Assembly: GCF_947487515.1 (NCBI RefSeq)
Contig: NZ_CANKWO010000001.1
Span: 124,001 to 188,000 of the forward strand
Direction: 5' to 3'
DNA from: an uncultured Litoreibacter sp.
Lineage (GTDB): Bacteria > Pseudomonadota > Alphaproteobacteria > Rhodobacterales > Rhodobacteraceae
Length of the DNA: 64,000 nt
The notes below the pieces were generated by a model. It worked only from the letters and a program-made list of their open reading frames with translations. It had not been told where the DNA came from and searched no databases. This document shows positions 22,000-40,647 of the stretch, piece by piece (the stretch's first letter is position 1; every line of letters starts with the position of its first letter). The position numbers were made by a program, and so were the translations under genes.

Positions 22000-22076
<77 letters not shown>

Positions 22077-37655: not shown

Positions 37656-38219
37656 TTATTCTTTGCCGCGCGACAAGGCCGCAACGCCTGTGCGGGCTTG
37701 CTCGATCAAACCAAGTGGGCGCATCAGATCGGCGAAGGCGTCGATCTTTTCGGAATGTCCGGTCATCTCAAACACAAAGCTTTCCAAAGTGCTGTCCACG
37801 ACATTTGCACGGAAAATTTCAGCAAGTCGCAGGGCTTCGATACGGTCATTTCCGGTACCTGCAACTTTGAACAAGGCCAATTCGCGCTCCACGCTGGCGC
37901 CTTCCTCGGTCAGGTCATGGACGCGGTAAACAGGAACCATCCGCTCCAACTGCGACTTGATCTGCGCGATGACAGCGGGGGTGCCCGTCGTTACCACCGT
38001 TATGCGAGAGCGGTGGCCTTCATGATCAACCTCCGCCACGGTCAAGCTTTCAATGTTGTACCCGCGTCCCGAGAACAGCCCAATAACGCGCGCCAGAACA
38101 CCGGCCTCATTGTCGACAACACAGGCCAGTGTATGGCGCTCGATGTAATCGCCGTTCGGGTCTTTGAGGTCATAGGCAGAGTGCTTCGATGTGCCTTTTT
38201 TGATCTTCAGCGGGGACAT
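37656..38219 (-). CDS. ilvH: Acetolactate synthase small (regulatory) subunit
   Basis: 187 residues with the N-terminal ACT domain (HTLACVVDNEAGVLARVIGLFSGRGYNIESLTV) that binds valine and controls the large subunit. It is the third gene of the leftward ilvB run, separated from ilvB by a 115-residue unknown gene, and is presumably under the same attenuator. Confidence 0.95.
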   Translation of the reverse strand: MSPLKIKKGTSKHSAYDLKDPNGDYIERHTLACVVDNEAGVLARVIGLFSGRGYNIESLTVAEVDHEGHRSRITVVTTGTPAVIAQIKSQLERMVPVYRVHDLTEEGASVERELALFKVAGTGNDRIEALRLAEIFRANVVDSTLESFVFEMTGHSEKIDAFADLMRPLGLIEQARTGVAALSRGKE

Positions 38220-38239: not shown

Positions 38240-38587
38240 CTATCGTATGTCGATCACAGGAGTGCCGGAGCTGGCCGGATACCCTGCGGATGTTAGCAAT
38301 GTAAGGCGCGTCGGGTCTTGCGCCTGTTTGGTGAGGCAGGTGCGGGACGGCTTGATCGTCACCGGTGCACCTTCAATTCGGGTTTCTTGGGCGAAATGAA
38401 GAACCAATGCGTGCCCATCGGCATTTGTGGCTGTCACGGTGTAACTTTCGTCCAAAGGTTCCACACAAACCTCAGCGGCCTGTGTGAAACGCAATTCTTG
38501 TTGCCAGACGTCCTTGTTCAGATCGAAGTCCGGCACCATAGCAGGGGGCAAACTGGCCGCGAAAAGTGAGGTGACCCACTCCCACAT
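38240..38587 (-). CDS. Hypothetical protein between ilvB and ilvH
   Basis: 115 residues, starting MWEWVTSLFAASLPP. It begins 3 nt after the ilvB stop and ends about 20 nt before ilvH, so it is in the operon. I recognise no family. Two Cys (about 41 and 85) and a beta-rich character suggest a small folded, possibly exported domain with a hydrophobic N-terminus that is not a clear signal peptide. The tight packing argues it is a real gene. Confidence 0.65.
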   Translation of the reverse strand: MWEWVTSLFAASLPPAMVPDFDLNKDVWQQELRFTQAAEVCVEPLDESYTVTATNADGHALVLHFAQETRIEGAPVTIKPSRTCLTKQAQDPTRLTLLTSAGYPASSGTPVIDIR

Positions 38588-38590
38588 GGG

Positions 38591-40351
38591 TTACACCATG
38601 ACCGCACCAGAGGACCCAATGGCGTCTTCGCCGGTGTCCTCGCCCATCAACATCTCATTATGCGGGGCGCCTGAGGGGATCATCGGGTAGCAGTTTTCGT
38701 GCTTCTCAACGCCGCAATCAAAGACCACGGGGCCGTCAAACTTGATCATCTCCATGATCGCGTCATCCAGATCGGACGGGTCTGTGCATTTGATGCCTTT
38801 TGCTCCGAACGCCTGCGCCAAAACAACGAAGTCGGGCAGGGCTTCGGACCATGAATGGCTGTAGCGGTTGCCATGGAGCAGTTGCTGCCACTGGCGGACC
38901 ATGCCCAAGCGCTCGTTGTTCAAGATGAACTGCTTGATCGGCAGGTTATACTGACGTGCGGTGCCCATTTCTTGCATATTCATCAACCAAGAGGCCTCAC
39001 CAGCCACGTTGATCACCAAAGCATCGGGATGAGCCACTTGCACACCCACAGAGGCAGGCAGACCGTAGCCCATCGTGCCCAAGCCGCCAGAGGTCATCCA
39101 GTGGTTCGGCTCCTCAAAACCCAAATACTGAGCGGCCCACATTTGGTGCTGCCCGACCTCGGTGGTGATGAAACGGTCTTTGCGATCTTTGGTCAGGGCT
39201 TCCAACCGCTGCAACGCATATTGCGGCTTGATGATGGTTTCAGAGTTTTTGTAAGAAAGGCAACGCTTTGCGCGCCATTCTTCAATCTTCTTCGACCATT
39301 TGGCCAAGCCTTCTTTATCTGTCTTGCGACCACGGGATTTCCAGATGCGCAACAGGTCTTCCAACACATGGGCGACATCCCCGACAATCGGCACATCCAC
39401 ATGGATGATCTTATTGATCGACGAGGGGTCAATATCGATATGCGCCTTCTTCGAGTGGGGTGAAAACGCGTCAACGCGACCAGTGATCCGGTCATCAAAG
39501 CGTGCCCCGATGTTGATCATCAGGTCGCAATCATGCATCGCCATATTGGCTTCATATAGCCCGTGCATGCCCAACATACCCAGCCATTGCGGGCCGGACG
39601 CAGGGTAGGCACCCAATCCCATCAGCGTCGAGGTTACCGGAAATCCGGTTTCTTTGGCCAGCTCACGCAGCAAAGCCGTTGCACTGTCACCTGAGTTGAT
39701 CACCCCGCCGCCGGTATACAGGATCGGGCGCTCGGCCTTTTCCATCAGCTCGGCCAATTCGGTGATGCGCTCAATGTCGCCCTTTACCTTAGGGGAATAA
39801 TGCTTGGTGTGGGCTTCCTTCTTCGGGGTGTAGGTCCCTTTGGCGAATTGCACATCCTTTGGAATATCGATCAACACCGGACCCGGGCGGCCACTGGTGG
39901 CCACGTGGAACGCCTGATGGATCACGTCAGACAGCTGGTCGGTATCCTTTACCAGCCAGTTGTGCTTGGAACAGGGGCGCGTGATGCCAACTGTATCCGC
40001 CTCTTGGAAGGCGTCATTGCCGATCATGAATGTCGGAACCTGACCGGTCAAAACGATCATCGGGATGCTGTCCAAAAGGGCATCCGTCATACCCGTTACG
40101 GCATTCGTGGCCCCGGGGCCGGAGGTCACAAGAACAACACCGGGCTTGCCGGTGGAGCGTGCGTAGCCTTCGGCGGCATGTGTGGCGCCTTGCTCGTGGC
40201 GCACAAGGATGTGGTTGATCTTGGATTGCTGAAAAATCTCGTCGTAAATCGGTAGAACAGCGCCACCGGGGTATCCGAATACTGTGTCCACGCCTTGATC
40301 AATCAGGGCTTGAACCACCATCTCCGCGCCGGTCATTTGCTTGTTTGCCAT
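38591..40351 (-). CDS. ilvB: Acetolactate synthase large (catalytic) subunit
   Basis: 586 residues of a ThDP enzyme: VFGYPGGAVLPIYDEI, the catalytic Glu in VRHEQGATHAAEGYARS, and the ThDP/Mg motif around VINVAGEASWLMNMQEM. In typical enzymes this last stretch reads GDGSF; here it is GEASW. First committed step of branched-chain amino acid synthesis. The ATG at 40351 follows AAGGACAG; 13 codons open upstream are within the leader. Expression is probably set by the leader-peptide attenuator just upstream. Confidence 0.95.
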   Translation of the reverse strand: MANKQMTGAEMVVQALIDQGVDTVFGYPGGAVLPIYDEIFQQSKINHILVRHEQGATHAAEGYARSTGKPGVVLVTSGPGATNAVTGMTDALLDSIPMIVLTGQVPTFMIGNDAFQEADTVGITRPCSKHNWLVKDTDQLSDVIHQAFHVATSGRPGPVLIDIPKDVQFAKGTYTPKKEAHTKHYSPKVKGDIERITELAELMEKAERPILYTGGGVINSGDSATALLRELAKETGFPVTSTLMGLGAYPASGPQWLGMLGMHGLYEANMAMHDCDLMINIGARFDDRITGRVDAFSPHSKKAHIDIDPSSINKIIHVDVPIVGDVAHVLEDLLRIWKSRGRKTDKEGLAKWSKKIEEWRAKRCLSYKNSETIIKPQYALQRLEALTKDRKDRFITTEVGQHQMWAAQYLGFEEPNHWMTSGGLGTMGYGLPASVGVQVAHPDALVINVAGEASWLMNMQEMGTARQYNLPIKQFILNNERLGMVRQWQQLLHGNRYSHSWSEALPDFVVLAQAFGAKGIKCTDPSDLDDAIMEMIKFDGPVVFDCGVEKHENCYPMIPSGAPHNEMLMGEDTGEDAIGSSGAVMV

Positions 40352-40390
40352 CGTGCTGTCCTTAACTAATCCGTCTTTACATCTGCTCAC

Positions 40391-40417
40391 AAAAAAGCCC
40401 CCGATCTTGGCGGGGGC
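40391..40417 (-). terminator. Attenuator terminator of the ilvB operon
   Basis: Read on the minus strand, GCCCCC (40417-40412) pairs with GGGGGC (40402-40397), followed by six T. It lies 40 nt before the ilvB ATG and 25 nt after the leader-peptide stop, so it would end transcription before the structural genes unless the antiterminator forms. Confidence 0.88.
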
Positions 40418-40459
40418 GCATGGTTCCTATTATGGAGTGTCGCTATCGACCCATGCACC
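40415..40459 (-). promoter_or_regulatory. Antiterminator pairing of the ilvB leader
   Basis: Minus-strand GGTGCATGG (40459-40451, inside the leader peptide's last codons) can pair with CCATGCGCC (40423-40415) with eight Watson-Crick pairs and one G-U. The second arm uses three bases of the terminator's 5' arm, so the two structures exclude each other. Confidence 0.7.
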
Positions 40460-40490
40460 GTTTGACTAGAATGACGACTACATCGGCCAT
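40443..40490 (-). CDS. ilv leader peptide (attenuation control)
   Basis: A 15-residue frame MADVVVILVKRCMGR ending in TAG. Residues 4-9 (VVVILV) are all branched-chain, exactly the amino acids the operon makes. AAGGAG at 40498-40503 lies 7 nt before the ATG. A ribosome stalled on these codons for lack of charged tRNA would leave the GGTGCATGG segment free to form the antiterminator. The position between a promoter-like element and a T-tailed hairpin fits the classic ilv/leu leader design. Confidence 0.85.
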   Translation of the reverse strand: MADVVVILVKRCMGR

Positions 40491-40518
40491 GCCGCTGCTC
40501 CTTCGTGAGTATTTGGTG

Positions 40519-40546
40519 ACATTACCAGTCGATTCAGGGGGGTCAA
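40519..40546 (-). promoter_or_regulatory. Candidate promoter of the ilv leader
   Basis: Minus-strand TTGACC (40541-40546), a 16-nt spacer and TAATGT (40519-40524). Initiation about 7 nt downstream would give a short 5' end before the leader's ribosome site. Confidence 0.6.
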
Positions 40547-40647
40547 CAGGCAATCGGGTGAATTTTATGTCTCTGGACGTATTTATCTTGTATTTATGTT
40601 GCGCCAAACCGCAAAATGACGACATGAAGCAAAATTGGAGGGCTGAA

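Follow-up and report, generated by a model that had tools for sequence, protein, structure and literature searches.

The ilvBN (ilvIH) operon of Caulobacter crescentus is preceded by a leader with tandem Ile/Val codons and an intrinsic terminator, and follows a tRNA-charging logic (PMC4117421, citing Tarleton et al. 1994). The ilvB, ilvGMEDA and leu leaders of E. coli also place a peptide rich in branched-chain amino acids (BCAAs) and a terminator upstream of a BCAA operon, and their leader peptides are 28-32 aa long (PMC6123439). BCAA-codon-rich uORFs upstream of ilvB are likewise found in the ilvB-OMG, ilvB (Leptospira) and ilvB-II (Corynebacterium) motifs, for which attenuation has been proposed or shown (PMC10272879), and the uORFC-8-2 motif of Rhodobacterales cysS is a candidate leader-peptide attenuator (PMC8632094). 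The passages of PMC8632094 consulted make no mention of a Rhodobacterales ilvB motif. Among the literature matches listed, with most subscription papers outside reach, there was no report of a Bcr/CflA attenuator, of a Rhodobacterales ilvB leader or of Atu_C8 as an attenuator.

The leader described here lies upstream of ilvB in a 64,000-nucleotide stretch of DNA, the whole of which was analysed and is called the window. It resembles the Caulobacter ilvBN attenuator in standing before the same operon in an alphaproteobacterium, a likeness drawn from the published description of that leader, and it shares with the E. coli leaders the BCAA-rich peptide and the terminator. CUA control codons are common to it and the Salmonella leu leader (PMC1183508). 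Its peptide has 15 aa, and unlike in the E. coli leaders the final codons of the ORF contain the 5' arm of its antiterminator, with no more than two to three terminator bases contested. The ilvB-OMG, Leptospira ilvB and Corynebacterium ilvB-II motifs belong to other lineages and have other structures, and uORFC-8-2, although from the same order, carries Cys codons and precedes cysS (PMC8632094).

Organization of the leader and the ilvB locus

All parts of the leader element were found in order on the minus strand, from 40546 to 40391. A sigma-70-type promoter, TTGACC-N16-TAATGT, occupies 40519..40546 (TTGACC at 40546-40541, TAATGT ending at 40519), followed by the ribosome-binding site GAAGGAGCAGC (40494..40504, GAAGGAG from 40504) and a leader ORF of 15 codons, MADVVVILVKRCMGR plus stop (40443..40490). 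Within this ORF are the control codons GTA GTC GTC ATT CTA GTC, encoding VVVILV (40464..40481), and the antiterminator 5' arm GGTGCATGG (40451..40459). The 5' arm pairs with the 3' arm CCATGCGCC (40415..40423, read from 40423 to 40415) in 9 pairs, one of them G-U, and the last three bases of the 3' arm are the first three of the terminator stem. The minimum-energy fold has a small hairpin, GTCG-ATAG-CGAC, around the stop codon with UAG in its loop (40439..40450), and a terminator scan placed the intrinsic terminator GCCCCCG-N7-CGGGGGC plus six T at 40391..40417 (stem 40417-40397, T-tract to 40391). The initial annotation had proposed a promoter, ribosome site, 15-residue peptide with VVVILV, 9-bp antiterminator and terminator in this order, and all of them are present on the minus strand.

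The next gene after the leader, with its ATG at 40351, encodes the acetolactate synthase large subunit (ilvB/ilvI, 38591..40351, minus strand; NCBIfam PRK09107, 1124.7 bits against a cut-off of 974) and is predicted to be under leader control; its product shares 95% identity with the L. ascidiaceicola protein, placing the host close to Litoreibacter. The small-subunit gene ilvN/ilvH follows at 37656..38219 (minus strand; PRK11895, 216.9 bits against a cut-off of 119). Both genes had been named as an ilvB-ilvH pair, a reading that holds for their identity but missed a 115-aa ORF between them (38240..38587, minus strand), which has no Pfam or NCBIfam match. This ORF occurs in 4 of 111 ilvB loci, namely the window itself, counted twice, and two Litoreibacter species. 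A divergent gene with a glyoxalase-type domain (PF00903; 40648-41040, plus strand) adjoins the ilvB promoter.

The -10 hexamer TAATGT is a poor fit to TATAAT, and a generic promoter scan of the window did not list TTGACC-N16-TAATGT. TTGAC is kept in 83 of 87 homologous leaders, as compared to 3.3 expected from shuffles, and a hexamer of the form xAxxxT follows it by 16-18 nt in 76 of the 87, with a spacer of 17 in 71 of these 76; TAATGT is the commonest such hexamer (n = 37).

We searched both strands of the 64 kb for ATG/GTG ORFs of 9-30 aa with at least five consecutive I/L/V and a strong terminator within 75 nt. The leader was the only qualifying combination, and 20 mononucleotide shuffles of the window gave a mean of 0.0 qualifying ORFs; a chance origin is ruled out by this control, the shuffles and the family conservation described below. 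The fold z-score of the leader alone is weak (-1.67, with 14 of 200 shuffles folding equally well), and single-sequence fold energy was therefore set aside as evidence. There is no Rfam match in the leader that would indicate a T-box or known riboswitch, the only match in 40340-40600 up to E = 10 being isrD (14.3 bits, gathering score 37, E = 2.2). Over the whole window, the Rfam scan returned no family at cut-off apart from one tRNA elsewhere, and tRNA-Pro (TGG) at 22000-22076 (plus strand) was the only tRNA found. A blastn comparison of the window's leader DNA with plasmids gave no match.

Conservation across the family

We gathered 111 ilvB loci (1 + 30 + 80), yielding 108 distinct upstream regions after three duplicates were dropped. 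A pattern of arms and T-tract that demanded CATGG and CCATG picked 87 of the 108, and 75 of these make up alignment A1, from which the covariance model R1 (17 pairs) was built. Among the 21 regions skipped by the pattern, 17 have an R1 match at E ≤ 1, ten of them at E ≤ 1.1e-7, and the other four (L046, L087, L090, L105) have no match upstream of ilvB at E ≤ 1. In A1, a purine-rich stretch is seen by eye at the position of the ribosome-binding site. The small stop-codon hairpin corresponds to helix 2 (84.7% of alignment cells paired, both-side changes in two of three pairs) and the terminator is helix 3, which is 99.4% paired over the 75 leaders and has three pairs changed on both sides.

R1 was run on 149 evenly drawn genomes of the window's family, each from its own genus and together the source of 23 of the 75 A1/R1 rows, and gave 132 strong matches (E ≤ 3e-5) in 129 genomes. 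Of these matches, 127 precede ilvB at a distance of 20-110 nt (median 41) and come from 126 of the 149 genomes; four of 18 weaker matches listed also adjoin ilvB, bringing the count to at least 130/149. Among the matches listed, 19 genomes lack one adjacent to ilvB. We read 18 of these 19 upstream regions, leaving out G017, where the match starts at the contig end, and three of the 18 (L007, L019, L148) gave R1 matches of 21.7-23.5 bits when the search was restricted to the locus. Other BCAA-rich peptides precede a terminator in L007, L148 and L155, despite no adjacent match among those listed.

The consensus leader peptide is MxxLVVIVGxxRMGR. Relatives of 15 aa were found in 79 of the 86 leaders read, 69 leaders having the RMGR ending, and V, I and L make up 37% of residues over the 86. 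In Sedimentitalea (L110:1841-1962) the leader ORF ends after MATLVVIVGT, before the 5' arm, and a ribosome would therefore finish upstream of the arm. A copy of part of the 3' arm, ATGCG, occurs within 12 nt past the T-tract in 23 of 87 ilvB leaders and in 1 of 87 in the next 12 nt.

A class-wide ilvB search covered 240 genomes, of which 168 matched; the best 30 loci were taken, 28 of them new. Among these 28, a BCAA leader with terminator was found only in the one locus from the same family. The other 27 upstream regions, one with only 80 nt upstream, gave none with a detector that needs five I/L/V in seven residues and misses weaker peptides, and R1 finds none either. By eye, L203/L242 (G336) may hold a weaker peptide of the kind that the detector misses.

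Rare codons are enriched in the leader peptides

CTA accounts for 49% of 114 Leu codons and GTA for 47.5% of 244 Val codons in the leaders, whereas 43 long ORFs taken from the window have 4.7% and 8.0%, a background from one genome set against leaders from many. The count covers 86 of the 87 leaders, L110 being omitted for its early stop, and includes L088 read from a wrong internal start. Changing CUA to CUG in the Salmonella leu attenuator lowered its sensitivity, and the same source calls the rare-codon explanation an oversimplification (PMC1183508).

Pairing of the arms and its overlap with the terminator

The pairs that join 3'-arm bases shared with the terminator stem to the 5' arm are formed in 74, 74 and 47 of the 75 A1 leaders. 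There is little covariation of the arms in A1 because they are nearly invariant, partly since the pattern that chose the rows required CATGG and CCATG. We list the pairs also for 27 leaders outside R1 (14 before ilvB and 13 before transporter genes), in an alignment that was fitted to R1, a model without the overlap pairs, and in which L003, L007 and L075 align poorly. Among these 27, the three overlap pairs persist in 25, 26 and 17 leaders. The two arm pairs beside the overlap hold in 26 leaders each, as compared to 14-22 for the pairs of the upper arm, and conservation along the stem is thus highest where it meets the terminator. One inner overlap pair takes C-G, U-G and U-A types among these leaders.

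A test at the codon level is offered by the codon before the [C/T]GC-ATG of the 5' arm, which varies between Thr, Arg, Lys, Gly, Leu, Val, Ala, Trp and Met. Among the 52 leaders with a codon other than Trp or Met here, 51 have G at its third position, as compared to 14.8 expected from the codon usage of the window. This wobble G is the second base of the 5' arm and its partner is the second base of the terminator stem, showing that selection acts on the overlapping pair.

In a partial transcript that still lacks the terminator's second half, the arm captures the contested three bases with P 0.99 in the window and with mean values of 0.99, 0.98 and 0.61 over 87 leaders. The full transcript was folded at equilibrium at 30 C, with ribosome masks at positions that we chose from an assumed footprint. 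When the ribosome is stalled upstream, the contested terminator pair has P 0.92 in the window, and over the 87 leaders its mean is 0.65 and its median 0.84; with a ribosome on the stop codon it is close to 1 in the window (mean 0.98). With no ribosome it falls to 0.41 in the window and a mean of 0.30, a lower value because in the fold the terminator's second half is taken up by the Shine-Dalgarno region. Such a pairing is not expected in a classical attenuator, and this fold was set aside. The alternative pairing that would exclude the terminator is conserved and wobble-selected in its overlap, yet involves only two to three contested bases, and the terminator is favoured at equilibrium in the window; on paper the switch would be weak unless kinetics decide.

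Related leaders precede MFS transporter genes

Five of the 132 strong R1 matches in the family are not at ilvB, and four of them (L157, L158, L159, L161) directly precede an MFS gene; the fifth, L160, does not. A search of 289 genomes of the class gave R1 matches at E ≤ 0.001 in 13, four of which belong to the window's family. Six of the 13, outside this family (L166-L171), precede the same kind of MFS gene; L172-L174 do not. The matches L160 and L172-L175, which are upstream of neither an MFS gene nor ilvB, are probably chance. Four of the ten leader-preceded MFS products were compared with NCBIfam, and each scores above the cut-off of TIGR00710, Bcr/CflA efflux (202.6-217.4 bits, cut-off 200.9).

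When the class was searched with one such MFS protein, 12 places were found at 48% identity or more, the query's own included, and seven of the 12 have an R1 match upstream. A Val-rich peptide is present in five of the seven (MNPKSVVVVVSRRCMVR, MHILIVVVGERRLDR, MTVTTVVVGAWRLDR, MKLQVDVVVEGCLGR, MQVSVVVGRRMGKAA), and L179 and L180 have the R1 match without one; L159, also a transporter leader, has no Val run. At six places of 39-43% identity, there was no R1 match at the gene (0/6). Order-wide searches for the transporter leader found it in 1 of 11 genomes around G332 and 1 of 1 around G149, and its distribution is therefore patchy, not clade-wide.

Thirty PLSDB records contain such an MFS protein at E ≤ 1e-60, of which eight were fetched. 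Leaders of 71-85 bits against R1 precede the MFS genes of three conjugative plasmids (L194-L196), from Leisingera caerulea, Phaeobacter piscinae (pP14_b) and Roseobacter denitrificans (pTB1), with peptides such as MTVKFVVVVSKRRMVR. A Rhizobium lusitanum plasmid has a weak R1 match (29 bits), and four of the eight have none at the MFS gene. Val-rich leaders before Bcr/CflA-type MFS genes, scattered over Alphaproteobacteria and on conjugative Roseobacter-group plasmids, seem to be new. On two of the four plasmids with no R1 match, Agrobacterium pAt2 and one from Mesorhizobium, a TPP riboswitch precedes the same MFS family (L197:1324-1440 and L198:1324-1440, the Mesorhizobium match being in four pieces), which suggests that at least some of these transporters carry metabolites.

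The Rhizobiales RNA Atu_C8 as a probable related leader

Two leaders, L200 (Rhizobium lusitanum) and L187 (G255), match the Rfam family RF02502, "Rhizobiales sRNA Atu_C8", with 111.5 and 98.8 bits (cut-off 50). Blastn matched the L200 leader to 17 plasmid records. Twelve of these are from Rhizobium and Phyllobacterium, and in every one the transporter match starts 52-130 nt downstream on the same strand, as judged by comparing coordinates by hand. The other five are from Sinorhizobium and Shinella; three were fetched, and in each the leader is followed by acetolactate synthase, which is annotated as such in the S. meliloti record, with ilvN behind it. The peptides before acetolactate synthase are MKNFAVILVVGRRMGRMV and MKNLTAIILVVGRRMGRVV (Sinorhizobium, Shinella) and that before the Phyllobacterium transporter is MKIAMVLVVVTKRMGRMV. 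In R. etli (L217) the short ORF has no stop at the usual place. Of 36 genomes in the family to which G255 belongs, six score above the Atu_C8 cut-off, each with the transporter following; in the class sample 1 of 289 genomes is above it and four more have matches below it. Atu_C8 sequences, mostly with a BCAA-rich leader peptide, were seen before acetolactate synthase or a Bcr/CflA MFS gene in L200, L202, L208-L212 and L214-L218.

Atu_C8 is like the window leader and its relatives in its arms GCGCATGGG and CCCATGCGC, a stop codon in the loop of the inner hairpin, a terminator and the two types of target gene, and its peptides are BCAA-rich with RRMGRMV-like endings akin to those of the window's family. 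Unlike in the window, the arms end short of the terminator: in 10 folded Atu_C8-type leaders the distance is 5-8 nt and none of the terminator is contested. The two models meet only weakly. The window gave no Atu_C8 match at the gathering score, nor one up to E = 10 in 40340-40600; the Atu_C8 model scores 32.2 bits, below its cut-off of 50, on the G399 ilvB leader from the window's family, and R1 scores 29.0 bits on L200 and 23.0 bits on L187. Atu_C8, filed as an sRNA, appears to be a BCAA attenuator leader of a related kind, a reading that seems to be new. Arms that do not compete with the terminator do not explain how Atu_C8 would antiterminate, and it may act in trans.

Probable attenuation and its alternatives

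The window leader carries a translatable short ORF rich in cognate codons and a terminator before a BCAA gene, and it is very probably a ribosome-mediated transcription attenuator of the acetolactate synthase operon, which is the best explanation of the data. The attenuator proposed for ilvB by the initial annotation is supported by the gene context, the peptide, the terminator, conservation in 126-130 of 149 genomes, the rare codons and the wobble G. Its further statement that the leader follows exactly the logic of ilv and leu leaders stands as to the type, a BCAA attenuator, and is too strong as to the switch, with two to three bases contested and the terminator at P 0.92 when the ribosome is stalled.

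We propose that transcription would start at the TTGAC promoter and a ribosome would translate the 15-codon leader. With charged Val, Ile and Leu tRNAs plentiful, the ribosome would reach the stop codon and cover the 5' arm inside codons 11-14; the 3' arm would then be free, the terminator would close and the transcript would end at a length of about 120 nt. Under a shortage of charged tRNA, the ribosome would wait on VVVI, leaving the 5' arm open to pair with the 3' arm while the terminator's second half is yet to be transcribed. This pairing would hold the bottom two to three terminator pairs next to the U-tract, and RNA polymerase would read into ilvB. Holding them during the pause may suffice because they adjoin the U-tract, whose closure drives release. 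We infer the transcription start, the ribosome footprint positions, the stalling, the dependence on tRNA charging and the sufficiency of the two to three bottom pairs for read-through.

If the terminated leader RNA or its peptide were the main product, acting in trans as an sRNA or regulatory peptide, control of ilvB would be secondary. Precedent exists in Sinorhizobium, where rnTrpL and peTrpL show an attenuator with trans functions (PMC10117765, PMC7143759). Rfam files the related Atu_C8 as a small RNA, and the arms, which vary unusually little, contest no terminator base in the Rhizobiales type. A free sRNA, however, needs neither a place directly upstream of ilvB, which the leader has in 126 of 149 genomes, nor a richness in cognate and rare codons, and we consider a mainly trans-acting product unlikely; a trans function would in any case not exclude attenuation. 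The invariance of the arms bears also on the possibility that the inverted repeat GCGCATGGG...CCCATGCGC is a DNA or RNA site for a protein that controls termination, the arms being near-identical in distant leaders, including Rhizobiales ones spaced differently from the terminator. We know of no protein that binds such a repeat. Outside the model, leaders pair with other letters (GTGC with GCGC or GCAC, and GCGCAC with GTGCGC in L058) and the upper arm varies; because the pairing letters vary there, pairing fits better than a fixed site. A repeat serving purely as a protein-binding site is for this reason less likely, and protein-controlled termination in general seems to us quite improbable.

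The folding values bear on a last possibility, that a constitutive terminator merely lowers ilvB expression while peptide and arms tune translation or processing with no sensing of amino acids. In its favour, the window terminator folds at equilibrium whether the ribosome is stalled or at the stop codon (0.92 as compared to 1.0). Such a terminator would not account for the run of BCAA codons, the rare-codon bias or a wobble G that has no apparent role other than to pair with the terminator, and we regard it as highly improbable. The switch to which attenuation of ilvB points is ordinary in kind; the instance is new and family-wide.

Significance for BCAA regulation in the Roseobacter group

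The leader is a family-wide regulatory element of BCAA synthesis in the marine Roseobacter group and relatives, for which no Rfam family matched at cut-off in the window search. Three things go beyond the routine: a transporter gene shares the leader, conjugative plasmids carry it too, and Atu_C8 is reinterpreted. Taken together, the data moderately favour a single Val/Ile/Leu-sensing attenuator family of Alphaproteobacteria that would drive both acetolactate synthase and a Bcr/CflA-type MFS transporter, in which the transporter unit would spread by horizontal transfer, including on conjugative plasmids from the marine Roseobacter group, and Atu_C8 would be the terminated leader in the Rhizobiales branch.

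With so short a stretch contested, the question arises of how few terminator pairs need to be held to block termination. If the joint reading is true, a public RNA family labelled as a small RNA would be relabelled as an attenuator, and an amino-acid attenuator that travels with a transporter on conjugative plasmids becomes testable. The MFS subfamily would gain a physiological cue, valine, and the regulon logic would put the transporter in BCAA physiology, as an importer of a BCAA-related compound or an exporter of something that starves the cell of BCAAs.
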